A stretch of 64,000 nucleotides of DNA from Propionibacteriaceae bacterium P6A17. GTDB taxonomy: Bacteria; Actinomycetota; Actinomycetes; Propionibacteriales; Propionibacteriaceae. Within the stretch, counting starts at the first letter, position 1; each line of letters opens with the position of its first letter. Of the stretch, positions 9,814 through 32,359 are shown one piece after another. The stretch spans positions 1-64,000 of the forward strand of contig JHVD01000011.1 in the NCBI GenBank assembly GCA_000619965.1. The letters are read 5' to 3'. The notes below the pieces were generated by a model, which saw only the letters and a list, made by a program, of their open reading frames with translations, made no database searches and was not told the origin of the DNA. A program made the position numbers and the translations under genes.

Positions 9814-11625
9814 TCAGGCCAGCGACGCCAGCCAGGCACGGTGCAGTTCGGCGTAGCGCCCCGCTCCCCCGACGAGCTCCGACGGCGCACCGTCCTCGAC
9901 GACGGTGCCGTGCTGCAGGACGAGCACGCGGTCGGCGATCTCGACGGTCGAGAGCCGGTGCGCGATGATGATGGCCGTCCGGTCGGCGAGAATCGTGCCG
10001 AGCGCGGCCTGCACGAGCCGCTCACTGGGGATGTCGAGGGAACTCGTCGCCTCGTCGAGGATGACGACGCGAGGGTCGGCGACGAGCACCCGCGCGAAGG
10101 CGACGAGCTGCCGCTGCCCCGCCGACAGTCGGGAGCCCCGCTTGCCCGTGTCGGTGTCGTAGCCCTCCGGCATCTCCTCGATGAAGCGGTCGGCGCCGAC
10201 CGCGCGGGCCGCCGCGACGATCTCGTCGCGCGTCGCGTCGGGGCGCCCGAAGGCGATGTTGTCCGCGATCGTACCCGCGAAGATGAAGTTCTCCTGCGTG
10301 AGCAGCGTCACGTTGCTGCGCAGCGTCTCCTCGGCGAGATCGCGCAGATCCACCCCGTCGAGCAGCACCCGACCGGCCTGCGGATCGTGGAAGCGCGCGA
10401 CGAGCTTCGCGATGGTCGTCTTGCCCGCCCCCGTGGTGCCGACGAGCGCCACCGTCTGGCCCGCGGGGATGTCGAGGTCCAGCCCGGGCAGCACCACCTG
10501 CTCCTCCAGGTAGCCGAAGCGGACCTCGTCGAAGGTGACCCTGCCCTGCACATCGGTGAGCGCGACGGGATGCTCCGGCTCGGCCACGCTCGGCTCCTCG
10601 GCCATCACCGACGCCACCTTCTCCAGCGCCGTGAGCGCCGACTGCAACGACGAGATGAACTGCCCGATGTCCTGCATCGGGTCGAAGAACATGCGCAGGT
10701 ACAGCACGAAGGCGGCCATGGTGCCGATGGTCATGGAGCCGTCGATGACCATCCACCCGCCGACGAGCACCACCAGCACCGCACCGACGTGCCCGACGAA
10801 CTGGATGGAGGGCATCGCGCGAGCGAACACCCGCATCACCGAGATGTTGGCGTCCCGGTACTCGGAGGCGACCTGCCGGAACTGTTGCCGGGAGCGGCCC
10901 TCACGGCGGAACGCCTGGATCGCCTTGATACCGGTCATGGTCTCGATGAACTGGACGATCGTCGTCGCGGATTTCGTGCGCACGACGCGGAAGCCCGTCG
11001 TCGATGCGCGCGCGAACCACCGCAGCAGCAGGAACAGCGCCGGATAGGTGCAGAACGCGACGAGGGCCAGCCGCCAGTCGAGGCTCAGCAGCAGGATCGT
11101 CGCGCCCACGACGGTGAGCCCGGAGGCGACGATCACGTCGAGCCCCTCGAACACGAGCTGCTGCACGGCCTCGACGTCGGAGGTCATGCGGGAGACGGCC
11201 CGGCCGGAGGTGTACGTGTCGTGGAAGCCCACGTCGAGCCGCTGGAACTGGCGGTACAGCCGTCGGCGCAGCGTGAGGAGGATGGCGTTGCCTGCCCGGC
11301 CCGAGCCGCGGATGAACACCACCCGGCCGGTCGCCTGCACCAGCACTGCGACGCCGATCGCCACCAGCAGCGTGCGTAGCAGCGCACCGTCGCCGGCGAT
11401 GAGCGCGGGGATGGCGTCGTCGAGGATCTGCCGCACGAGATAGGGTACGGCGAGGCTCGCGAGAGAGCCGGCCAGGATGGCCACGGCGAGCCCCAGCCCG
11501 ACCCAGCGATACGGCATGACGAGGTCGAGCAGGAGGCGGCGGCTCGCCGGGCGCAGGGCCATCGTCGTGTCCTGTTCCTCGACGATCTCCTGCTTGCGGC
11601 CGAGCCAATCGGTGGTGTCGCTCAT
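9814..11625 (-). CDS. ABC exporter half-transporter, second of a heterodimeric pair
   Basis: Transmembrane plus ATPase protein of 603 residues, probably pairing with the preceding gene to export a lipid, drug or peptide. The six-helix ABC exporter domain covers about 30-330, and the nucleotide-binding domain holds Walker A ALVGTTGAGKTT, a slightly non-canonical signature RLSAGQRQ, and Walker B VVILDEATSSLD with the catalytic Glu present. ATG at 11625 overlaps the upstream stop (ATGA), so the two are translationally coupled. The same frame stays open far upstream, but that is arginine-rich shadow of the partner gene. Substrate unknown. Confidence 0.92.
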   Translation of the reverse strand: MSDTTDWLGRKQEIVEEQDTTMALRPASRRLLLDLVMPYRWVGLGLAVAILAGSLASLAVPYLVRQILDDAIPALIAGDGALLRTLLVAIGVAVLVQATGRVVFIRGSGRAGNAILLTLRRRLYRQFQRLDVGFHDTYTSGRAVSRMTSDVEAVQQLVFEGLDVIVASGLTVVGATILLLSLDWRLALVAFCTYPALFLLLRWFARASTTGFRVVRTKSATTIVQFIETMTGIKAIQAFRREGRSRQQFRQVASEYRDANISVMRVFARAMPSIQFVGHVGAVLVVLVGGWMVIDGSMTIGTMAAFVLYLRMFFDPMQDIGQFISSLQSALTALEKVASVMAEEPSVAEPEHPVALTDVQGRVTFDEVRFGYLEEQVVLPGLDLDIPAGQTVALVGTTGAGKTTIAKLVARFHDPQAGRVLLDGVDLRDLAEETLRSNVTLLTQENFIFAGTIADNIAFGRPDATRDEIVAAARAVGADRFIEEMPEGYDTDTGKRGSRLSAGQRQLVAFARVLVADPRVVILDEATSSLDIPSERLVQAALGTILADRTAIIIAHRLSTVEIADRVLVLQHGTVVEDGAPSELVGGAGRYAELHRAWLASLA

Positions 11626-18800: not shown

Positions 18801-21311
18801 TCAGCCGGCGATCGCGTTGATCGTGGCCAGCACTTCGCTCACGACGGCGCGCGGCGCCTGCGACCACGGCACGTGCTCGATGGGCCCGAGGAAGGTCGGA
18901 CTCGCGAACCTGGGGTCGGCCCCGTGGTCGAGATTCTGAGGATCGAACTCGCCGCGCAGCAGATACACCGCGCTGAGCGTCTGCTCGTCCTGTTCGCTCA
19001 TCGGCCCCATCCACAGGCCCTCCTCGAACTGGATCACGGCCGTCACATCGCCCGCGACGAAGTACTGCCCGAACAGGCGGTACACGCCGGCATCCAGCGC
19101 GGCTCCACGCTGCCAGCCATGCTTCGTGCACGCCCCGACGAGTCGGCCCGGATCGATCCCAGCCGAGGGAACCCCGGCCAGGCAGAGGTCGTCGCCCTGC
19201 TCGGCGGGCAGCGCGAACCGTTGGCGGGAGAGCTGGGGGAACGCCTCGACCAGCTCGTAGTCGGCCTGCACCTCGCTCCAGCGCGCGATTTCGTCGTCTG
19301 CGAGATCCACCGGGTGCACGATGCACACGCTGCGGCCCGTGACGTCGATGGGCGCGTCGTCCACGTCGACGAGCGCACCGTCCTCGTCGAGGCGCCCGAG
19401 CGCGACGCGCGTCTCGCCCTCGAGCACACCCCAGATCACCGACTTCAGCAGCCCACGAAGCAACGGATGCGGGCGCAGGTACTGCTGGAACTCGTCGGCA
19501 CTCCAGCGCCTGCCCGCGACCATCGCCTGCTCGAAGCGCAGCCGCTGGATCTTGGCGATGTCGGCGACCGTCTTCTTCAGCACCTTGAGCTCGTCCTTGG
19601 CCTCGGCGGCCTGCCGCGGGTCGTCGGACTGGTTGGGTGCGGGCAGGGCGGTCCTGGGCTTGCCCGTGGGACGTCCGTCCGCGCCGAGCGGGCGCACGAT
19701 CACCTTCCCTTCGGGCGTCACGGACGCGAGGAACCGTCGGGCCCCGAAGCTGAACTCCCGCGTCCCGCGCTCGTCGAGGCCCCCGTCGGGGATGATACGA
19801 TCCTCGAGCTGCGGCCGCGTCAGGCCGAGCGTCGACGCGATCTGCTCCATCTCCTCCCCTGCGCGCTTCTTGATGGCGGCGAACTTCACCTTCGACGCAA
19901 CGCCCGCGATGGCCTGGAGCGCGACGTCGGAGCCGACGTTGCGCAGGGCGGCGAGCCCCTGCACCGCGCGCTGGTGCTGGGCGACGCCGGGCCACTCGCG
20001 CACCATCGGCGTCAGGTGGTGGACGAAGCCGTCGCCGGCGATGCAGCCCGAGCCGACCATCAGCCATTGCTCCTTGCCGGCGGCCCCGCGGGCGAGCCAC
20101 GTGTCCAGCAGTGCGATCGTGAAGCGGTCGCGCACCGTCGCCGGCACCTGATCGCGGAAGGCGACGAGGAGCGGATGGTCGCGGTCGGCGGTCATGAGCG
20201 CCGTGAGGAGCACCTGCGCCTCGGCGTCGGCGAGCCTGAACCCCTCCTCGACGACGACGGGCGGCAGCGTCTCGACGAGGCCCTTCGGCAGCCGCGCCAC
20301 CGTGATCCCCTGGGCGGCCTGCGCCCACCACGGCGTCGCCGGATCGAATGGCGCGAGGTCCTGCTCCGCGAGGATCTCGTCGATGACCGCCCGCACGCCC
20401 TCGGTGGTGTGCCCGACGTGGGCCCGCAGCTCCTCGACGGGCGCGGCCCGCAGCACGAGCGCGAGCGGCGCCGCGTCCCGGGCGGACAGGGTGGCGGCGT
20501 AGACGAGCCCCCGGTGTGCGTTCAGCCATTCGAGTGCGGTGGATGCGTGCCGGCCGCCGAGGAGGCGGGCGAAGACCTGCACGGCGCCCGGCCCACGAAG
20601 GCGGGTGGTGAGGATGTCGAGCCCCGGACGGGCCTCGTCCTTGCCGAGGCCGTTGAAGCGCCGCTTCAGCGCGGCCGACATCTCGTTGACCCCACGGTCG
20701 CGACTGTTGGCGGTGGCGATGACGTTGAAGCCCCGGAGCGCGTGGACGCTGCGCGCATCGCCGTCGAACTCCGGAATGGAGAGGACCCGCTCGGAGAGGA
20801 TCGACAGGAGCGCATCCTGCACCTCCGGGGCGCAGCGCGAGAGCTCCTCGAAGCGGACCACCTTGCCCTCCGACATGCCGCGGTGGACGGGCGCAGGTAC
20901 CAGCGCGCGGGCCGTCGGCCCCTCGGCAAGCAGCAGCGCGTAGTTCCACGAATACTTGATGGCGTCCTCTGTGGTGGCCGCCGAGCCCTGGATCGTGAGG
21001 GTGGTGTCGCCCGAGATCGCCGCGGCCAACAGCTCGCTGAGCAGCGACTTCGCCGTACCCGGCTCGCCGATCAACATCAGGCCGCGGTTGGTGGCGAGCG
21101 CGACGACACACCGCTCGACGAGCGAGCGCGCGCCGACGAACTTCGCGGAGATCTCCTCGCCGTCGCCCAGCACGAATTCCACCACCGCCGGGGCCGAGAG
21201 CCTCCAGCCGTCCGGGGCGCGGCGGCCGAGCCGCGCGTCCCGCTGCGCCAGCCGCGCCAACTCGTCGGCGTACCTCACTTCGGCCGGCGGCCGCTGCACC
21301 GGTGTCGTCAT
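18801..21311 (-). CDS. MoxR-type AAA+ ATPase fused to a DUF4132 region
   Basis: 836-residue protein. An N-terminal MoxR/YehL-like AAA+ domain has Walker A GEPGTAKS (82-89), Walker B VVRFEE (about 151-156), sensor 1 [12 protein letters not shown] (about 196-207) and arginine-finger context ALKRRF (about 215). After a helical middle region, residues about 500-640 resemble DUF4132 ([66 protein letters not shown]), with a C-terminal tail to 836. DUF4132 is known from E. coli MolR/YehI, encoded near the separate MoxR gene yehL. Here the two parts are one chain, and no vWA or SWIM-type partner is in the window. ATG start with GAGGGACTCC upstream. Function unknown; chaperone-like remodelling or a conflict-system role are both guesses. 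Confidence 0.75.
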
Positions 21312-21408: not shown

Positions 21409-22908
21409 TCAGCGTCGGGGCGCCGGTGCCTCCCTGGACGCGGGGTCCTCCTCGTCGAGGGGAAGCCGCAGCTCGTGGGTGTGGATGGTCCAGTAGATCG
21501 CCACGAGCAGGCTCAACATGACCACCCACAGGCCGTTGCGCAGCCCGAAGTTCATCGCGTTGTAGCCCAGCAGTGCCACCGTCGCGACGATGGCCGCGCG
21601 CATCATGCGGCGCGTCGGGTGCGACATCGGCAGCAGCACCCCGCCCCAGAGCAGGTACCACGAGTGCAGCGCGGGGGCGCACAGCGAGAACCAGATCAGC
21701 GACCACGACACGAACCGCACCGGCATCCGGCCCAGGTAGCGGATCGCGAAGACCACCATCCCGACGACGATCGCCACCACGCCCGCCTTCCGGACGAGGT
21801 TGAACGCCAGCTCGCCCTGGACGGGATGGCCGGCGAGCACGAACGGGAATTCCAGCATGCGGCCCAGCAGGATCACCGGCGAGAACGTGTCCACCTTGCC
21901 GGGCACGTCCGTCGCACCCATCCAGCCGAAGCCGAGCCCCGTCGCGAACGTGATCCCGACGAACGCCGCCACCGCCACCAGCAGCGACCCGACCGAGCGC
22001 AGGAATGCCAGCGCGAGCGGCTTTGGCCGCCACGACGTCCACGGCACCACCATGAACGGCAACGCCACCGCCGCCAGCAGTGCCGGCTGCTTCACCGCCG
22101 CCGCGGCCCCGATGACCAGCGCACCGACGATGACCCACCGGTGGCGCAGCGTGATCCAGATGCCGAGCACCATGAGCCCGGTCATCAGCGAATCGTTGTG
22201 GGCGCCGCCCACGAAGTCGATCACCAGGATCGGGTTGAGGGTCGCGAACCACGTCGCCGTCGACCGGGAGACCCCCACCAGGCGGGCGATGCGCGGCACG
22301 AAGTACCCGATGAGGACGACGCCCGCCAGCGCCGGGATGCGGTGCAGCAGCGTGGCCAGCAGCGGATCGAAGCCGGCCAGCAGGACGAGCCCGTGCGAGA
22401 TTCGCAACGCGAGCGGGCCGTAGGGCGCCGGCGTCTCACGCCACACCCACGCCACCTGGTCGGCGAAGTAGCCGGGCAGGACGCCTGGGCCGACGACGTA
22501 TGGGTCCAGGCCGTTGTGCAGCAGCCAGCCGTGCGCGACGTAGGAGTAGGCGTCGTGGGAGAACACCGGCGGCCCGAACAGCAGCGGCGACACGATGATC
22601 GCGAGCACCGCCCAGTTGCGCAGCAGCGGACGGCCGCGGCGTCGACGATTGCTGGGGCGCAGCCGAAACCAGGACTCGAGCAGCAGCGCCAGCCCGACGA
22701 GGGTCAGCACCGTCCCCGTCCAGCGCAGCACCTCGATGCCGACGGCCGACTGCGGCAGCCACGCCCAGATCGGGGATGCCTGCGGGAGGTAGGCGGGCGA
22801 GAGCGACCCGAGCAGGATGCAGAAGCTGCCCGCGAAGCCAGCCCAGACTGCGCGCGAGCGCGCCGCCGCCGCGAGGTCGCGGACCCAGCGGCGCTCAGTC
22901 ACCGCCAT
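21409..22908 (-). CDS. Polyprenol-phosphomannose-dependent alpha-1,6-mannosyltransferase, MptB-like
   Basis: Integral membrane GT-C glycosyltransferase of 499 residues with about a dozen predicted helices. In Mycobacterium and Corynebacterium, MptA/MptB extend the mannan backbone of lipomannan outside the membrane from polyprenyl-phosphate mannose. The first-loop acidic motif is [14 protein letters not shown] (about 160), then [18 protein letters not shown] and [15 protein letters not shown], all characteristic of this group. ATG at 22908 overlaps the ferredoxin-like gene upstream by 14 bases, so it is coupled to it, although the two have no obvious biochemical link. It is probably used for a lipoglycan of the cell envelope. 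Confidence 0.82.
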
Positions 22909-23215
22909 GCCCGTTGGCGAGCCGGCCGCGCTCGTGCAGCAGGTCGCCCAGACGCTCGGCCGCCGGCACGTGCGCGCCCGCCCACTCGAGGGCCTCGTGC
23001 GGGCACTGCTCGATGCAGATGCCGCAGTACATGCACAGCCCCCAGTCGATGCTGAACGTGTCCAGCACGTTGTGGGTGCGGGGCCGCGCCCCCGGTGCGG
23101 GCACCGTCTGCTCCTGGTGCGAGGTGAGCCGGATGCACCACGTCGGGCACTCGCGCGCACAGATCATGCACGACGTGCAGCGCTCCTCGATGAGGCGGAT
23201 GGAGCCGTGGATCAT
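22895..23215 (-). CDS. NuoI-like 2[4Fe-4S] ferredoxin of an orphan NuoB/C/I module
   Basis: 106-residue protein with two complete four-cysteine motifs, CTSCMICARECP (about 13-24) and CMYCGICIEQCP (about 65-76), separated as in NuoI and hydrogenase-type ferredoxin subunits. In complex I this subunit passes electrons to the quinone-linked cluster N2. ATG at 23215 overlaps the stop of the NuoC-like gene (ATGA). It is clearly diverged from the nuoI at 43026-43586 in length and sequence. Its last 14 bases overlap the mannosyltransferase start. Confidence 0.8.
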   Translation of the reverse strand: MIHGSIRLIEERCTSCMICARECPTWCIRLTSHQEQTVPAPGARPRTHNVLDTFSIDWGLCMYCGICIEQCPHEALEWAGAHVPAAERLGDLLHERGRLANGHGGD

Positions 23216-23733
23216 CTCCTGAGCCTCACCCTCGTCCCCGTGGCGCTGAGCGCGATGTCCGATTCCGTCGCGGCGGGGTTGTCGACCACCGCCGGGTCCG
23301 GCACGCCGACCGGCAGCAGCTTGCGCCCGCTCGGGGCGGACTGCCCGGGCTCCAGCGCGCCCGGCCACGACGACGCCGACCGCGGCTCGAGCAGGAACTC
23401 CTTGCGCAGCGGGCGATCCTCCCCGTGCACGATGAGAGGGGCGTCGTCGCAGGCCGTGCCGTCGGGGCGCACGAAGCGCACACCGAAGGATTCGTGGACG
23501 TGGCGCTGCAGCCATGCCGCGCCAGCCCACAGGTCCTCGACGCCGGGCGCGACCGGCTCGTCGCGCGGCACGAGCGCCTCGACGGTCACCCTCGCGTGAT
23601 CGGTGGGGCGCTCGAGCATCAGCACGACACGGAATCCCCCGTCGCGGCCCAGCTCGTCGACCGCGGTGAGGTGCAGCAGGAACGTGAAGCCGTCGCGCAG
23701 GGCCGCCTCGGCGTCGGCACGGTAGTCAGCCAC
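23212..23733 (-). CDS. NuoC-like (30 kDa) subunit of an orphan NuoB/C/I module
   Basis: 173 residues. The core LLHLTAVDELGRDGGFRVV, DEPVAPGVEDLWAGAAW, ESFGVRFVRPDG and DRPLRKEF lines up with the respiratory-chain 30 kDa domain of NuoC, including the DLW...A.W and LRK segments. The final 55 or so residues are unlike NuoC, and no NuoD-like domain is fused. GTG start at 23733 overlaps the NuoB-like stop by eight bases. The trio therefore lacks the large catalytic subunit that normally pairs with this protein. Confidence 0.72.
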   Translation of the reverse strand: MADYRADAEAALRDGFTFLLHLTAVDELGRDGGFRVVLMLERPTDHARVTVEALVPRDEPVAPGVEDLWAGAAWLQRHVHESFGVRFVRPDGTACDDAPLIVHGEDRPLRKEFLLEPRSASSWPGALEPGQSAPSGRKLLPVGVPDPAVVDNPAATESDIALSATGTRVRLRR

Positions 23734-24118
23734 GGCGCACCGCCTCCACGATCTCGACGAAGGCCTCGGGCGGCGGCGGGCAGCCCGCGACGAAGTGGTC
23801 CACCGCGACGGCCTCCCCCACGCCCTTGGCCACCGAGTACGAATCCCAGTAAGGGCCGCCGACGCACGCGCACGCCCCGAAGGCGACGACGACCGGCCGC
23901 CCGGGCAGCGCGGCCACCGTCTCACGCAGGGCGGGGGTCATGGCGTGCGTCAGCGTCCCAGAGGCGGTCACGATCACCCTGGCGTCGCCAGGCAGCTCCG
24001 CCGCGGGCACCCGTCGGCGCTGCGCCAGCGCGGCCTGCGATTCGAGGGCGCAGCACGCCAGCGCCAGATCGACGACGTACACCGACCCGTCCCCGCACCA
24101 GTCCACTGCCTGCACCAT
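23726..24118 (-). CDS. NuoB-like (20 kDa PSST) subunit of an orphan NuoB/C/I module
   Basis: 130-residue small-subunit homologue of complex I and energy-converting hydrogenases. All four ligands expected for cluster N2 are present: ALACCALES (two adjacent Cys, about 22-23), FGACACVGG (about 83) and VAGCPPPPE (about 111). It is shorter than the 184-residue nuoB at 51386-51940 and only distantly similar. ATG start at 24118 has no Shine-Dalgarno but has TACGCT seven bases upstream, so the trio seems to be its own leaderless transcription unit, 46 bases after the PEP carboxykinase gene. Confidence 0.75.
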   Translation of the reverse strand: MVQAVDWCGDGSVYVVDLALACCALESQAALAQRRRVPAAELPGDARVIVTASGTLTHAMTPALRETVAALPGRPVVVAFGACACVGGPYWDSYSVAKGVGEAVAVDHFVAGCPPPPEAFVEIVEAVRRG

Positions 24119-24164: not shown

Positions 24165-27100
24165 TCAGGCGAAGCGCTCCTGGCGCCCCGTCGTGCCGAC
24201 GAGCAGGCGCGCATCCGGCGTGGCGGCGCGCAGCCGCTCCAGCTTCTCGGCCAGCCCGAGCCGCTCGGCCGCCTCCGCGTTCGACGGCACCGCCACGAAC
24301 TCCTCGATGGCCGCGATCGAGCGCTGCAGGAGCTGACGCTCGGCGTCGGCGGCGGAGGCCAGCCGGGCTGCGTACCAGTCGGAGGAGAGCACGTGCTCGC
24401 GGGTGAACATGGCCCGGAACTCCGGCGAGTGCAGGGTCAGGCCCTCGTACTCGCCGTGGGCCATGATCGCAAGCAGCGCCTTGATCGGCGGGATGGCCAG
24501 ATTGACCGTGCCGTCCTCGAAGTAGCTCTTGGCCACGCGCTCGTGCGTGGTGAGGATCGTCTCCACCGACGACGCGTACTCGGCCGGGTCCTGCAGCTCC
24601 GGCCGCAGCATGTCGTCGGAGAAGACGACGTGCGGGTGCAGGAAGATGCGCCCGAAGTACTTCGTGGTGAACTTCTTGTTGATGCGGTAGCCGAGCCGGC
24701 TGGCCTCCAGCGTGCGGCCCTCCCACTCGAAGTCGGGCACCGCCTCGAGCGCGCCCTCGTCGATCAGGTGCTGGGCGTCGCGCTCCTCGACGCTCATGCG
24801 CGAGAACAGCTCCGGGATGAGCAGCGAAATGTCGTGGTCGACGCGAACGTGCGGCCCCACCACACCGGCCGACGAGAGCCAACCGTCGTAGCCGGTGAGC
24901 GCGAAGGAGAGGAAGGCGGCCCCCAGATCGTAGACGGAGGGCAGCGAGTTGAACGGACCCTTGGTCATCGCCCCCTCGGAGCCGGCGCCCGTCGTCGACG
25001 GCGACTTGCCCGTCATCGACGAGATGAACTCCATCATGAGTTCGGGCAGCGGCATGTAGTGCAGCGGCCCGTAGGCGCACAGCGCGGGCACGCCCTCTTC
25101 CGCAGCGTTGTTGCGGCGGCCGGCGGCGACCACGTCGACGCTGCGGCGCAGCGGCTCCTCCGGGCGGAGGCCCTGCGAAAGCCGCTCGCCCAGCTCGGCG
25201 AGCGCGGTGGCCCTGGCGTTGACCACGTCGGGGCGCACCTGCAGGTAGCGCGGGTTCTTCGAGCGGGCGCCGTCGACGATGCGCGGATGCGCCGAGGAGA
25301 CGAAGTAGGGCTCCTCGTAGCGGCCCTCCGCGAAGCGGCGGATGAGACGCCGCATGGGCTTGGTGAACTGCGAGAAGCCCACCGCGTCCTCCATGAGCGC
25401 GACCGCGTCGTCCCTTTCCAGCGGCGCAAAGTTGGAGAGGAATGCGCCGTTGGCGATGTCCATCTCGGTCTGCTTGTCGTAGCCGCGGTGGATGGCGTCG
25501 TCGGGGCGCTGGAACAGCAACCGCTCCGCGTTCTCGACGTACTTGCGGCTCGGTGCGTCGGCCCCGCCGCTGGACGGCGCGACGATGGAGGCGGTGATGT
25601 CGTCCTCGGTCTGCACCTTGGCGGCCGGGTGGAAGTCGTGACGCAGGCCGAACAGGCGCCAGGAGTCGCCGGCCTCGTAGCCCACGCGCAGCATGTTGAC
25701 GCGGATCTTCTCGCCGTCGAGGCGCAGCGCGTGCCCGGTGCGACCGTTGAGGCTGGGGACCGCGAAGTGGCCCACCCAGTCCTCTCCCCACTCCGGCCGG
25801 TAGAAGCGCTTGACGACGAAGACGAGCTCCTTGATGTGGTTCGGGATCGAGTCGAGCCAGGCGTTGTACTCGTCGGTGAAGTCGGTCGACGGGCTCAGCA
25901 GCTTGATGACGGAGCCGACGGAGCGGGCGTCGGAGAGCAGCGGGCGCACGTCGTGGGCGTCGGGGTCTGCGAAGCGGTCCGAGAAGTCGCGCTCGACGAT
26001 CTCGCGCACCTGGGCCATGTCGCGCTCGAAGTCCTCGACGTACACGTTGCCGACGATGAACGCGTCGGTGATCGACTTCGAGATCTCCGACTTGCCGCCG
26101 CCGGAGACGGTGGCCGGCTTGTGCGCCTCGGTGGCGACGGGCTGCGTGCCGACGAGCGTCCACTGCGAGCCGTCGACGGCGAGGTGCACCGGCTCCACCT
26201 GGTAGCCGTCGGGGAGGATGTAGGTGTGGTCGGCCTTCAGCGTGATGCGCTGCTCGCCGCTGCCATTGCGCCACGTGATGCTGGAGTCGCGCAGCGAGAA
26301 CTCCGCGGTCTCCGGCACGAGCACGAGGCGGTCGATGACCGAGTCGACGGCGTACCCCTCGGGCGCGACGCGCCAGCGATCGGGGTCGCAGTTGAGGGCC
26401 TCCGCGAAGCGCCGCCGGGGCACGCGCGAGCCGCTGAAGGTCTGACCGAGGTTGTAGCGCGGGTAGGTGCGGGCGCCGCCGGCGTGCTCCTCCTCCACCA
26501 GGCCGAGGAGGTTCGTCGCGTAGCTGATCTGCGCCTTGACCTCCTTCTTGCAGTAGCCGAAGTAGTTGTCGGCGATGACGGTGACGATGACGCCACGCTC
26601 GTCGCGCAGGCACAGCTTGAAGGCGGAGCCGCCGTTGTAGCGCTCCTGCGGGTCGTTCCAGCACTGCCCGTCCCGACGCTGACGCTCGGTGGCGTCGTCG
26701 ATGTGGGGCAGCCCCAACTCACGCTTGGTGAGCTTCGTGAGGTGTGGCGCCAGGATGACGGCCCCGGTGTGGCCCGTCCACGTCTCCGGGTCGAGCGCCG
26801 CGTCCCCCTCGGGGAGGAACGGGTCGCCGGCGTTGCCGAAGATGCCCTCGACGAAGTGCAGGTTCGCCATGAGGCTCGCCGGCGCGAAGAAGCGGACCTC
26901 CATCGTGCGGCGCGGGGTGAAGCCGGGCACTGCCGGCACGACGACGGGGCGCAGCAGCAGCGACGCCCAGCAGTGCAGCGGATGGGGCTCGGCAGAGGTG
27001 TAGGGCAGGAGCATGGACTCCTCAGGCGGCTGCAGGGCCGCGGCGAATATGCGGGCGGCGACCTCGCGCGGCACCGCGATCTTGTCGGCCTGGATGGGCA

Positions 27101-27509
27101 GACCGCCCTCAGCGATGTGGAAGACGCCCTTGGTGGTGCGGCGGTCGTTGGCGGGGTTGTGGAGCACTCCGTTGGCGAGCCGATAGCTGCTCAACTGCTC
27201 GGAGGCGAAGTGGTCGCCGCTGCGCGGCAGCGACATTTCGCTGGCCAGGCCCTCCTCGTCGAGCACGAGCGTGCGGTTGGGAAGGCGGCCCTGCCAGTCG
27301 GTGCCGTCGAAGTAGGAGTCGAGGAAGTACTGGATGCGCTGGTCCACCGGGGGGATGGCGAAGCCGAGGCGGCGGTTGAATTCGCGCTGGCGGTCCAGGA
27401 TGGGCCGCACGAGCGCGACCTCCTCCCCTGATGCCGCCGTGTGCTCCATGGCGTAGCCGAGGAGCCCGAGTCGAAGTGCAATGGCCGATGCGGTGATCTT
27501 GTTGCCCAT
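24165..27509 (-). CDS. PPi-type phosphoenolpyruvate carboxykinase
   Basis: Large cytosolic protein of 1114 residues matching the diphosphate-dependent PEP carboxykinases described from Propionibacterium freudenreichii and Entamoeba, which interconvert PEP + CO2 + Pi and oxaloacetate + PPi. The length is right for that group (about 1100-1200) and far above GTP or ATP PEPCK (about 530-620). Visible motifs are RYNGGSAFKLCL (about 291), YFGYCKKEVKAQISYA (about 315), EEEHAGGART (about 340) and a phosphate-binding-loop-like SGGGKSEISKS (about 468-478). It would link glycolysis to the dicarboxylate/propionate pathway using PPi. ATG at 27509 lacks a Shine-Dalgarno but has GATAAT seven bases before it. 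The assignment rests on recall of the family, not a search. Confidence 0.75.
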   Translation of the reverse strand: MGNKITASAIALRLGLLGYAMEHTAASGEEVALVRPILDRQREFNRRLGFAIPPVDQRIQYFLDSYFDGTDWQGRLPNRTLVLDEEGLASEMSLPRSGDHFASEQLSSYRLANGVLHNPANDRRTTKGVFHIAEGGLPIQADKIAVPREVAARIFAAALQPPEESMLLPYTSAEPHPLHCWASLLLRPVVVPAVPGFTPRRTMEVRFFAPASLMANLHFVEGIFGNAGDPFLPEGDAALDPETWTGHTGAVILAPHLTKLTKRELGLPHIDDATERQRRDGQCWNDPQERYNGGSAFKLCLRDERGVIVTVIADNYFGYCKKEVKAQISYATNLLGLVEEEHAGGARTYPRYNLGQTFSGSRVPRRRFAEALNCDPDRWRVAPEGYAVDSVIDRLVLVPETAEFSLRDSSITWRNGSGEQRITLKADHTYILPDGYQVEPVHLAVDGSQWTLVGTQPVATEAHKPATVSGGGKSEISKSITDAFIVGNVYVEDFERDMAQVREIVERDFSDRFADPDAHDVRPLLSDARSVGSVIKLLSPSTDFTDEYNAWLDSIPNHIKELVFVVKRFYRPEWGEDWVGHFAVPSLNGRTGHALRLDGEKIRVNMLRVGYEAGDSWRLFGLRHDFHPAAKVQTEDDITASIVAPSSGGADAPSRKYVENAERLLFQRPDDAIHRGYDKQTEMDIANGAFLSNFAPLERDDAVALMEDAVGFSQFTKPMRRLIRRFAEGRYEEPYFVSSAHPRIVDGARSKNPRYLQVRPDVVNARATALAELGERLSQGLRPEEPLRRSVDVVAAGRRNNAAEEGVPALCAYGPLHYMPLPELMMEFISSMTGKSPSTTGAGSEGAMTKGPFNSLPSVYDLGAAFLSFALTGYDGWLSSAGVVGPHVRVDHDISLLIPELFSRMSVEERDAQHLIDEGALEAVPDFEWEGRTLEASRLGYRINKKFTTKYFGRIFLHPHVVFSDDMLRPELQDPAEYASSVETILTTHERVAKSYFEDGTVNLAIPPIKALLAIMAHGEYEGLTLHSPEFRAMFTREHVLSSDWYAARLASAADAERQLLQRSIAAIEEFVAVPSNAEAAERLGLAEKLERLRAATPDARLLVGTTGRQERFA

Positions 27510-29426: not shown

Positions 29427-31301
29427 GTGTCCAAGCAACTCAACAGGGTGGTCATCCGCTTCGCGGGCGACTCCGGCGATGGCATGCAGCTCACCGGCGA
29501 TCGATTCACGGCGGAGGCCGCCAGCCTCGGCAACGACATCGCCACGCTGCCCAACTTCCCCGCGGAGATCCGCGCCCCGCAGGGCACGCTGCCGGGTGTG
29601 TCGAGCTTCCAGCTCCACTTCGCCGACTTCGACATCGTCACCCCCGGGGACACCCCCGACGTGCTCGTCGCGATGAATCCCGCCGCGCTCAAGGCCAACC
29701 TCAAGGACCTCCCCAAGGGGACGGTCGTCATCGTCGACACGCACGATTTCACCCCGCGCAACCTGAAGAAGATCGGGCTCGCCACCAGCCCGCTCACCGA
29801 CGGCACCCTCTCGGCCTTCACCGTGCACGAGCTGGACCTCACCGACCTCGCCCAGCGCGCCGTCGAGGGCTTCGGGCTCACCCGCAAGGACGCCTCCCGG
29901 ACGAAGAACATGTTCGCGCTGGGGCTGCTGTCGTGGATGTACTCCCGGCCCACGGACGGCACCGAGCGCTTCCTCGCCGAGAAGTTCGCGAAGAAGCCCG
30001 ACATCCGCGACGCCAACATCGCCGCCTTCCGGGCCGGCTACGCCTACGGCGAGACCACCGAGGCGTTCGCCGTCCAGACCGTCGTCAACCCCGCCCCCAT
30101 GCCGCCGGGACGCTACCGGCAGGTCTCCGGCAACCTGGCCACCGCCTACGGGCTCATGGCCGGCGCGAGCAAGGCCGGCCTGCAGCTCTTCCTCGGCTCC
30201 TACCCCATCACGCCCGCCTCGGACATCCTCCACGAGCTGTCCAAGCGCAAGGACGTCGGCGTCATGACCTTCCAGGCGGAGGACGAGATCGCCGGCGTCG
30301 CGGCCGCGCTCGGGGCCAGCTTCGGCGGAGCCCTCGGCGTCACCACCACCTCGGGCCCCGGCATGGCGCTCAAGTCCGAGACGATCAGCCTCGCCATCAT
30401 GACCGAGCTGCCGCTCGTCGTCGTCGACGTGCAGCGCGCCGGCCCCTCGACGGGCATGCCGACGAAGACCGAACAGGCCGACCTGCTGCAGGCCCTCCAC
30501 GGGCGCCACGGCGAGGCCCCGCTGCCCGTGCTCGCGGCCCGCTCGTCGAGCGACTGCTTCGACACGGCCCTCGAAGCCTGCCGCATCGCCGTGACGTACC
30601 GCACCCCGGTCATCATGCTCTCCGACGGCTACCTCGCCAACGGGGCGGAGCCGTGGCGCATCCCCAACCTCGACGCGATCCCTCCGATCGCGCCCGGCTT
30701 CGCCACCGAGCTGGCCGACGGCGACCCGCACTTCCTGCCGTACCGCCGCGACGAGGAGACGCTCGCGCGCGCCTGGGCAGTCCCCGGCACCCCCGGCCTC
30801 GAGCACCGCATCGGCGGCATCGAGAAGGACGCCCTCACCGGCAACGTCTCCTACGATCCGGACAACCACGAGCGCATGGTGCGCACCCGCGCAGCGAAGG
30901 TGGCGGGCATCGTGCGCGACGTCCCGGACCTGGAGGTCGACGACCCGAGCGGCGAGGCCAAGCTGCTCGTGCTCGGCTGGGGCTCCACCTACGGCCCCAT
31001 CACGGCGGCCACGCGCCTCATCCGCAAGACCGGCCGCAAGGTCGCGACGGCGCACCTGCGCCACCTCAACCCCCTGCCGGCGAACCTCGCCGACGTCCTG
31101 CGCTCCCACGAGCACGTGGTCGTTCCCGAGATGAACCTGGGCCAGCTCGCGCAGGTCCTGCGGGCGCAGTTCCTCGTCGACGTGGAGAGCTATTCGCGCG
31201 TGCGGGGCCTGCCGCTGTCGATCGCCGAGCTCGAGGAGCATCTCACCGCCACCATCGACCGCCTGGAGGGCGCCGTCGACGCCAAGGAGGAAGCACGATG
31301 A
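29427..31301 (+). CDS. korA: 2-oxoglutarate:ferredoxin oxidoreductase, alpha subunit
   Basis: Larger subunit of the enzyme that converts 2-oxoglutarate + CoA to succinyl-CoA + CO2 with ferredoxin as acceptor; it can run in the carboxylating direction. 624 residues with the gamma domain fused at the N-terminus (VVIRFAGDSGDGMQLTGD, LPNFPAEIRAPQGT) and the alpha domain behind (GSYPITPASDILHEL, FQAEDEIAGVAAALGAS, TTTSGPGMALKSE, QRAGPSTGMPTKTEQADL). This is the two-subunit actinobacterial form. GTG start with GAGG a few bases upstream. The stop overlaps korB as ATGA. In Mycobacterium this enzyme closes the TCA cycle independently of the dehydrogenase complex. Confidence 0.94.
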   Translation: MSKQLNRVVIRFAGDSGDGMQLTGDRFTAEAASLGNDIATLPNFPAEIRAPQGTLPGVSSFQLHFADFDIVTPGDTPDVLVAMNPAALKANLKDLPKGTVVIVDTHDFTPRNLKKIGLATSPLTDGTLSAFTVHELDLTDLAQRAVEGFGLTRKDASRTKNMFALGLLSWMYSRPTDGTERFLAEKFAKKPDIRDANIAAFRAGYAYGETTEAFAVQTVVNPAPMPPGRYRQVSGNLATAYGLMAGASKAGLQLFLGSYPITPASDILHELSKRKDVGVMTFQAEDEIAGVAAALGASFGGALGVTTTSGPGMALKSETISLAIMTELPLVVVDVQRAGPSTGMPTKTEQADLLQALHGRHGEAPLPVLAARSSSDCFDTALEACRIAVTYRTPVIMLSDGYLANGAEPWRIPNLDAIPPIAPGFATELADGDPHFLPYRRDEETLARAWAVPGTPGLEHRIGGIEKDALTGNVSYDPDNHERMVRTRAAKVAGIVRDVPDLEVDDPSGEAKLLVLGWGSTYGPITAATRLIRKTGRKVATAHLRHLNPLPANLADVLRSHEHVVVPEMNLGQLAQVLRAQFLVDVESYSRVRGLPLSIAELEEHLTATIDRLEGAVDAKEEAR

Positions 31302-32359
31302 CCGCCGCACCCATCGACGGGGGCCTCGCCGGGGTCCCGCTGTCGCTGACGCCGCTGAACCGCAAGGACATGGTGAGCGACCAGGAGGTGCGCTGGTGTC
31401 CGGGCTGCGGCGACTACGCCATCCTGTCGACCTTCCAGCAGGTCGCCGCCGACCTCGGCGTCAAGAGGGAGAACATCGTGATGATCTCCGGCATCGGCTG
31501 CTCGTCGCGCTTCCCGTACTACGTCGACGCCTACGGCATGCACTCGATCCACGGGCGGGCACCCGCGATCGCGACGGGGCTCGCGTCGTCGCGCGAGGAC
31601 CTGAGCGTGTGGGTGGTCACCGGCGACGGCGACGCCCTCTCGATCGGCGGCAACCACCTCATCCACGCGCTGCGCCGCAACGTGAACATCAACATCTTGC
31701 TGTTCAACAACCGCATCTACGGCCTCACCAAAGGCCAGTACTCCCCCACCTCCGAGCTCGGCAAGGTCACCAAGTCCACCCCCTACGGGTCGCTCGATGC
31801 GCCGTTCAATCCGCTGTCCGTTGCGCTCGGGGCGGAGGCGACGTTCGTCGCGCGCGCAGTCGACTCGGATCGCGCCCAACTGGCCGAGGTGCTGCACGCG
31901 GCGGCCCAACACCGGGGCGCGGCCTTCGTCGAGATCTACCAGAACTGCCCCATCTTCAACGACGGCGCCTTCGACACGGTCAAGGGGCCCGAGTCCGCGG
32001 AGACGCTGATCCCGCTGCGCCACGGCGAACCCATCACGTTCGGCGCCGACGGCCACCGAGCCGTCGTCCGTGACGGTTTCGGCGGGCTGCGGGTCGTCGA
32101 GACCGCGACGGTGGATCCCTCCGAGATCGTCATCCACGACGAGACCCTCACCGACCCGTCGTACGCCTTCGCGCTCTCGCGGCTCACCGAGCCCGGCGTG
32201 CTCCAGCAGGCCCCCGTCGGCATCCTGCGTCGCGTCCAACGCCCCGCCTACGACGACCTCCTGCGCGAACAGATCGCCACCGTCCGCGCGGATGATCCGC
32301 AGGCTGCGCTAGCCTCGATCATCGCAGGTCCGGATACGTGGGAGGCAGGCACCAGATGA
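31298..32359 (+). CDS. korB: 2-oxoglutarate:ferredoxin oxidoreductase, beta subunit
   Basis: 353-residue thiamine diphosphate and [4Fe-4S] subunit partnering KorA. Cluster ligands are seen in RWCPGCGDY (about 29-37), SGIGCSSRFPYY (about 65) and QNCPIFND (about 215). The ThDP-binding motif is VTGDGDALSIGGNH through FNNRIYGLTKGQYSPTS. ATG at 31298 overlaps the korA stop and has AAGGAGG upstream. Its own stop overlaps the start of the next gene, making a three-gene coupled unit. Confidence 0.95.
   Translation: MTAAPIDGGLAGVPLSLTPLNRKDMVSDQEVRWCPGCGDYAILSTFQQVAADLGVKRENIVMISGIGCSSRFPYYVDAYGMHSIHGRAPAIATGLASSREDLSVWVVTGDGDALSIGGNHLIHALRRNVNINILLFNNRIYGLTKGQYSPTSELGKVTKSTPYGSLDAPFNPLSVALGAEATFVARAVDSDRAQLAEVLHAAAQHRGAAFVEIYQNCPIFNDGAFDTVKGPESAETLIPLRHGEPITFGADGHRAVVRDGFGGLRVVETATVDPSEIVIHDETLTDPSYAFALSRLTEPGVLQQAPVGILRRVQRPAYDDLLREQIATVRADDPQAALASIIAGPDTWEAGTR

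Follow-up and report, generated by a model that had tools for sequence, protein, structure and literature searches.

A NuoB-NuoC-NuoI gene trio with an unlinked NuoD in Propionibacteriaceae, a probable soluble remnant of Nuo2-type complex I

The stretch of DNA analysed here (the window) comprises 64,000 nucleotides of Propionibacteriaceae bacterium P6A17, positions 1 to 64,000 of the forward strand of contig JHVD01000011.1 (assembly GCA_000619965.1). It carries three small overlapping genes, termed nuoB2, nuoC2 and nuoI2, whose products resemble the NuoB, NuoC and NuoI subunits of complex I; a NuoD-like gene, nuoD2, is found on a different contig of the same genome. The reading preferred here, with a probability of roughly 0.6, is that the trio and NuoD2 form a soluble, non-pumping, quinone-independent electron-transfer module, the remnant of a Nuo2-type complex I whose membrane arm has been deleted. 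That the trio is, by anatomy and origin, the cytoplasmic half of a Nuo2 complex I is close to certain, and such a module is probably soluble and not a canonical quinone reductase.

The gene trio and its unlinked partner

All three genes are on the minus strand. nuoB2 (24118-23726, ATG start) encodes a NuoB-like protein of 130 amino acids (aa) with the ligands for one [4Fe-4S] cluster at the N2 position. nuoC2 (23733-23212, GTG start) encodes a NuoC-like (30 kDa) protein of 173 aa, and nuoI2 (23215-22895, ATG start) a NuoI-like 2x[4Fe-4S] ferredoxin subunit without the N-terminal membrane-facing helix. The nuoC2 start lies inside the end of nuoB2, and nuoC2 and nuoI2 are joined by a common ATGA. 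In Pfam searches nuoB2 matches PF01058 with 56 bits (cut-off 27), nuoC2 matches PF00329 with 56 bits (cut-off 22.5) and nuoI2 matches Fer4 models. The CC, GxC and GCPP ligand motifs of NuoB are all found in nuoB2, as are both CxxCxxCxxxC motifs of NuoI in nuoI2. Coordinates, Pfam matches and motifs confirm the preliminary description of this DNA, which had reported small overlapping NuoB/C/I-like genes with all four plus eight Cys kept. A predicted structure of NuoB2 (AlphaFold2; mean predicted local distance difference test score, pLDDT, 88.8) has complex I NuoB chains as its top PDB matches; the model confirms the predicted fold and is silent on the acceptor. No transmembrane-like segment is seen in NuoB2, NuoC2 or NuoI2 of the window, nor in NuoD2.

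The canonical 14-subunit complex I genes are also in the window, at 36.9-52.4 kb. The strong divergence of the trio from these genes, claimed earlier, is borne out by identities of 29% for B, 27% for C (over 51 aa) and 27% for I. It had also been noted correctly that neither a NuoD nor a membrane subunit adjoins the trio in the window. However, the trio is not the orphan that was proposed. A search of the whole genome for the 49-kDa family shows the canonical nuoD of the window and one lone NuoD-like gene, of the kind the preliminary description suggested looking for, on contig C2. nuoD2 extends from about 128,952 to 130,043 of that contig (approximately 1.1 kb, start codon uncertain) and was matched in two pieces, 128,952 to 129,611. 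Its neighbours are fol genes with ftsH on one flank and lsr2-/clpC-like genes on the other, the names being assigned by reading and synteny. The alignment with NuoD runs the length of NuoD2, and identity to the window's nuoD product is 24%. The sequence displays no CxxC, hence no pair able to bind nickel.

The two unlinked parts occur together. A search for NuoD2 across 245 genomes of the order gave 110 matches at E <= 1e-30. NuoB2 and NuoH were sought in 80 genomes chosen from those listed in the NuoD2 search plus one further genome, G062; this set takes in all 54 listed genomes of the window's family, Propionibacteriaceae, that have NuoD2 and 18 of the 20 listed without it, and leaves out 115 further genomes of the order without NuoD2. 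Among these 72 family genomes NuoD2 and NuoB2 are both present in 54 and both missing in 18, and neither is found alone, so that the trio and NuoD2 stand or fall together in 72/72. Both states occur inside genus g1 (Tessaracoccus) and inside g200, g201 and g205, suggesting that the trio and NuoD2 were lost jointly more than once. In one genome, G441, NuoB2 was matched in two pieces and NuoD2 partially; the loci nonetheless read as open frames, and the idea of a broken copy was set aside. A sample of the phylum contained 296 genomes, and the 26 listed ones that share the window's class or order, with its own genome among them, were compared, other classes not being tallied: 12 have both a strong NuoB2 match (E <= 1e-25) and a strong NuoD2 match (E <= 1e-60) and 14 have neither.

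The trio and NuoD2 are under purifying selection. By pairwise NG86 (Nei-Gojobori) estimates, which are simple and in some cases near saturation, the ratio of nonsynonymous to synonymous differences (pN/pS) is below 1 in every pair tested and falls to 0.04 for NuoI2. For a close pair in genus g209 the nonsynonymous and synonymous divergences (dN/dS) are 0.041/0.232 for NuoB2, 0.064/0.457 for NuoC2 and 0.061/0.510 for NuoI2; a close pair in g207 gives 0.018/0.576 for NuoI2, and the pair G350/G474 gives 0.015/0.084 for NuoD2. A counter-case named in the preliminary description, in which relatives have an adjacent NuoD, this strain has lost it and the remaining genes are decaying, does not hold: all 54 family genomes with the trio have NuoD2, at an unlinked site, and the genes are intact.

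Origin from Nuo2-type complex I and loss of the membrane arm

NuoI2 and NuoC2 share 56% and 43% identity (the latter over 135 aa) with Streptomyces-type nuo2 proteins, compared to 27% each with the window's own nuo proteins, and NuoB2 is 41-44% identical to nuo2-type B as against 29% to the window's own NuoB. An RHDW motif is found in NuoD2 of 40/40 reduced sets, i.e. those without the membrane arm, and of 10/10 full sets. The Streptomyces nuo2 operon (SCO4599-4608) with its separate nuoD2 is already described in two papers (PMC3765725, PMC8388888), and a third calls the nuo2 function unclear (PMC9239103).

Eleven NuoB2 regions of the same class were compared. Nine carry A-B-C-H-I-J-K-L-M-N and G062 displays a reduced set; in G204 (L078) the nuo2 operon seems interrupted, with approximately 5 kb between B and C/H and no nuoI2 in the fetched stretch. 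A NuoD adjacent to the trio genes is found only in six genomes read from other actinobacterial classes, which have a contiguous 11-subunit Nuo2 operon without NuoEFG, with nuoD between C and H and with NuoH in 6/6. Canonical nuo genes adjoin this contiguous operon in 5/6 fetched stretches (L301-L304, L306). The likely order of events is a contiguous 11-subunit complex, movement of nuoD away from it, and deletion of the membrane arm in some lineages. A hydrogenase (Ech/Ehr) origin was considered and rejected: NuoB2, NuoC2, NuoI2 and NuoD2 all match nuo2-type proteins far better, NuoD2 is without nickel ligands and the only NuoH is canonical. Three options had been offered for the trio at the outset. 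A reduced electron-transfer module and a partner located elsewhere (NuoD2) hold up, but a hydrogenase-related relic does not, since the nearest relatives found are nuo2-type and NuoD2 has no CxxC.

A nuo2-type second NuoH is present in 0/54 trio-bearing family genomes, while order-mates outside the family show two full NuoH genes in 7/7; in the window's own genome the search showed no second NuoH, the sole one being canonical. Other NuoH-like genes, with a much lower score and on a different contig, are seen in G470, G482, G494 and G519. Separately, in G421, G470, G482 and G494 low-scoring extra NuoB-like and NuoH-like genes lie close together on other contigs and may belong to clusters for a group 4 hydrogenase or formate hydrogenlyase. 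In 33 family loci no nuo2-type membrane genes are found beside the trio, the few nuoM/nuoN matches being canonical genes. Nor are nuo2-type A, J or K found beside it in these loci, A, J and K not having been searched genome-wide; the probe for J extends into nuoI and yields spurious matches within nuoI2. The genome search for antiporter-like partners, proposed in the preliminary description, gave only the canonical nuoL/M/N and a presumed Mrp pair on contig C16. The latter was dropped as a partner of the trio because the locus reads as that of an ordinary Mrp antiporter; genes taken for pta and ackA come after it.

The loss extends to features of the quinone site. In Thermus thermophilus the loops lining the quinone cavity are Nqo4 32-39 (NuoD), Nqo6 66-75 (NuoB) and Nqo8 223-229 (NuoH), and the quinone chemistry involves His38 and Tyr87 of Nqo4 (PMC7434922, PMC5552823). 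The PRQ motif of the NuoB loop is found in 17/17 NuoH-bearing loci and in 0/34 reduced loci. On the NuoD side, we take His38 and Tyr87 to correspond, by alignment, to the HPxTHG and RMDY motifs. The His is present in 10/10 full sets and in 0/40 reduced ones, where it is replaced by Ala (18), Thr (9), Val (5), Pro (5) or Ser (3). The Tyr position is Trp in full and reduced Nuo2 alike, thus the Tyr change predates the loss of the membrane arm. The N-terminal helix of NuoI is absent from 34/34 family copies and present in 59/59 named NuoH-bearing loci. The cluster ligands are kept: the four Cys of NuoB and the eight Cys of NuoI, in both motifs, are each found in 34/34 family copies. The NuoD pocket residues H65, R66, E69, R86, H87, D88 and W89 (numbering used in this analysis) are invariant in 40/40 reduced sets. 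Judged from the sequences, the quinone cavity is dismantled, with the second NuoH absent, the NuoB loop rewritten, the NuoI helix missing and the NuoD His lost.

Reduced sets are not confined to the family. In the best 80 named loci, 59 have NuoH as well as the NuoI helix, 16 lack both, and five have the helix without a NuoH in the locus (L196, L204, L214, L253, L259). Four of these five show nuoI2 with or without J-N and no nuoB2 or nuoC2, thus only L259 looks reduced. Reduced loci outside the family come from metagenome-assembled genomes (MAGs) labelled Nocardioidaceae (L189, L190, L193, L259), Frankiales (L250) and Actinobacteria (L199). No NuoH is found near the trio in any of the six loci, and NuoD2 is present in all of their genomes (in two pieces for L259). 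Apart from G062, the six reduced non-family genomes (G539-G544) are all MAGs, in which an absent gene could be an assembly gap; the whole-genome NuoH search gave one canonical-type gene in each (partial in G542), with a further gene of low score in G544. In L189, L190 and L250 the NuoI helix is lost and the NuoB loop rewritten as in the family, and the L199 genome has lost the NuoD His motif. G062, a single-contig genome, keeps the helix, a shortened NuoH frame of approximately 120-140 residues and an A2 match. The shortened frame (L075, about 10410-10800) is situated between nuoC2 and nuoI2, apparently results from an internal deletion and perhaps marks an intermediate step in losing the membrane arm. 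By their sequences, G062 and L259, which keeps the helix and has no NuoH, look like recent stages of membrane-arm loss.

A NuoD tree of 56 rows unites the 38 family rows in a single clade (100/99). It places G062 as sister of a full-operon gene (99/97) and groups the L259 genome with two full-operon genes (98/92). Branches in the family clade are long, and that of G544 is very long. These placements indicate at least three losses of the membrane arm, the other MAG lineages being too weakly resolved to count.

The KorAB neighbourhood and the possible role of the module

The preliminary description had placed a KorAB ferredoxin enzyme about 5 kb from the trio, in agreement with the korA start 5.3 kb away. 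korA (29427..31301, plus strand; TIGR03710, 666 bits) encodes the alpha/gamma subunit of a 2-oxoacid:acceptor oxidoreductase, a candidate electron source, and korB (31298..32359, plus strand, start codon putative) encodes the beta subunit and matches the PorB/KorB family. Of 33 family loci, 22 have korA less than 500 bp from the trio and 31 have it less than 7 kb away, and its orientation to the trio is divergent in 27/31 and co-directional in 4/31. It is also found in the fetched stretch of 7/11 class loci and of 32/59 NuoH-bearing named loci. The module usually stays close to korAB. Among the neighbour families of 45 reduced loci, korA occurs in 42 and a mannosyltransferase in 33, the rest being general synteny. 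In M. tuberculosis KorAB has been characterised as a 2-oxoglutarate:ferredoxin oxidoreductase, and the enzyme is reported in 23/43 actinobacterial species (PMC2773412).

Other genes near the trio were also noted. The mannosyltransferase of the window is MptB/MptA-like (21409-22908, minus strand), and its ATG at 22908 overlaps the nuoI2 end. A gene of about 1,000 aa without Pfam or NCBIfam match (24165-27455, minus strand) also stands upstream of the trio in L121, L122 and L123. The gene at 18801-21311 (minus strand) codes for a protein that combines DUF4132 with an AAA_5 ATPase domain. The korA of G535 (L148) displays an in-frame TGA and a match split in two, maybe a frameshift or sequencing error.

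NuoB2, NuoC2, NuoI2 and the unlinked NuoD2 are most likely the four subunits of one soluble iron-sulfur module. In the proposed path, KorAB would oxidise 2-oxoacids and hand low-potential electrons, directly or via ferredoxin, to the pair of [4Fe-4S] clusters in NuoI2. From there they would move on to the [4Fe-4S] cluster in NuoB2 and exit where NuoB2 meets NuoD2, the acceptor being something other than membrane quinone. As the module has neither NuoH nor antiporter subunits, it is not expected to pump ions. That many related bacteria keep this stub makes a new electron-carrying job probable. The link to KorAB, suggested by gene order, is put at somewhat less than an even chance. The wider scenario is given similar odds, a little under one half: a soluble NuoB2-C2-D2-I2 set that left the membrane for good, abandoned both quinone and proton pumping and now relays electrons of KorAB-level donors to a new acceptor at the altered surface between NuoB and NuoD, the membrane arm having disappeared on several independent occasions among actinobacteria.

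Several observations weigh against the preferred reading. In the window other genes stand between korA and the trio, and korA is not in the fetched stretch of 2/33 family loci. korA is present in 79/80 genomes, including 18/18 trio-less family genomes, thus KorAB does not need the module; being nearly universal, its presence or absence is uninformative on whether the module depends on KorAB. No acceptor gene is conserved beside the trio among the neighbour families of the 45 reduced loci. Constraint is weak in some pairs, with pN/pS up to 0.72 for NuoC2 (g200, the weakest), 0.57 for NuoD2, 0.54 for NuoB2 and 0.48 for NuoI2. Finally, the NuoD His is still there in L189/L193, L190 and L250, hence the sequences support a loss of quinone chemistry only for the family and MAG G544.

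The closeness of korA to the trio, below 500 bp in two thirds of the family loci and co-directional as well in L148 and L149, would also fit direct KorAB subunits, with NuoI2 as a delta-type ferredoxin subunit and NuoB2, NuoC2 and NuoD2 as scaffold or wiring of one large complex. NuoI2 does give a weak match to the PorD/KorD model TIGR02179 (37.3 bits, cut-off 60.05), but it scores higher with the NuoI model (57 bits, cut-off 113), and every trio-less family genome has korA nonetheless; this explanation is doubtful, at perhaps one chance in four. A further proposal is an alternative peripheral arm, with NuoB2-C2-D2-I2 docked on the canonical NuoA/H/J-N in place of NuoB-I to give a ferredoxin-driven hybrid complex I. 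One canonical membrane arm does exist in the genome, and hybrid machinery in Streptomyces is speculated on in PMC9239103. However, the docking and quinone surfaces are those that were lost (NuoI helix, NuoB loop, NuoD His), and the helix and loop are gone too in reduced loci of other lineages. Because the lost features are the contact features, the hybrid is disfavoured and considered unlikely.

Slightly less probable still is that the complex I core has become a sensor of redox state or of small molecules, which would signal rather than catalyse. The conserved pocket without the quinone His fits such a role, as does the want of an obvious acceptor gene beside the trio, but no regulator family is conserved among the neighbour families of the 45 reduced loci and all three cluster sites are kept, as expected of a wire. 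A decaying relic without function was rejected as very improbable. Membrane subunits have been lost, the remaining genes are absent from a quarter of the family genomes (18/72), the NuoD2 branches of the reduced clade are long and some pairs show the weak constraint given above. Against this, 34 family loci in 13 genera retain open frames and ligands, pN/pS stays below 1 throughout, the pocket residues do not vary and the B-C-D-I set is also retained in lineages with separate membrane-arm loss.

Complex I is usually viewed as modular, the NADH module being dispensable and the quinone module and membrane arm going together. Here the quinone module survives alone, with the quinone site taken apart and the electron wiring and the rest of the pocket fixed. 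If the soluble-module reading is true, complex I has evolved from a membrane pump to a soluble oxidoreductase, a direction not found described in the literature searched. That search turned up papers on nuo2 and on 11-subunit complex I and covered few subscription journals; a membrane-free NuoBCDI set was not found described in the texts as far as accessible, which is weak evidence of absence. The module would also serve as a compact model for the site of the N2 cluster, and it may reveal an electron acceptor for KorAB, which is present in M. tuberculosis and many other actinobacteria too. The natural series of forms (full; helix without NuoH; helix and loop lost; His lost) offers material for dissecting the elements of the quinone site.

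Comparison with known systems

The canonical 14-subunit complex I has homologous NuoB, NuoC, NuoD and NuoI with the same Fe-S ligands, but the window's set is only 24-29% identical to it, and the canonical enzyme has a full membrane arm and the HPSTHG and MDY quinone residues. Group 4 [NiFe] hydrogenases (Ech/Mbh/FHL) show distant NuoB/NuoD homology to the trio and NuoD2 (matches to 6cfw and 7z0s); they differ in that NuoD2 is without the nickel-ligand CxxC and no NuoH-like partner accompanies it. The PorD/KorD delta subunits are likewise 2x[4Fe-4S] proteins coded near korAB, but NuoI2 scores under the family cut-off and is accompanied by NuoB/C/D partners. The NuoEFG-free complex I of PMC11238625 also lacks NuoEFG and leaves its electron donor an open question; it has a full membrane arm, whereas the window's version consists of four subunits without one. 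The nearest known system is the nuo2 of Streptomyces, of which S. antioxidans (L260) is a named case. The window's version is without several of its parts, namely A, H, J-N, the helix of NuoI, the loop of NuoB and the quinone His, but the two share orthologous NuoB2, NuoC2 and NuoI2, an unlinked NuoD2 and the RHDW motif within it.

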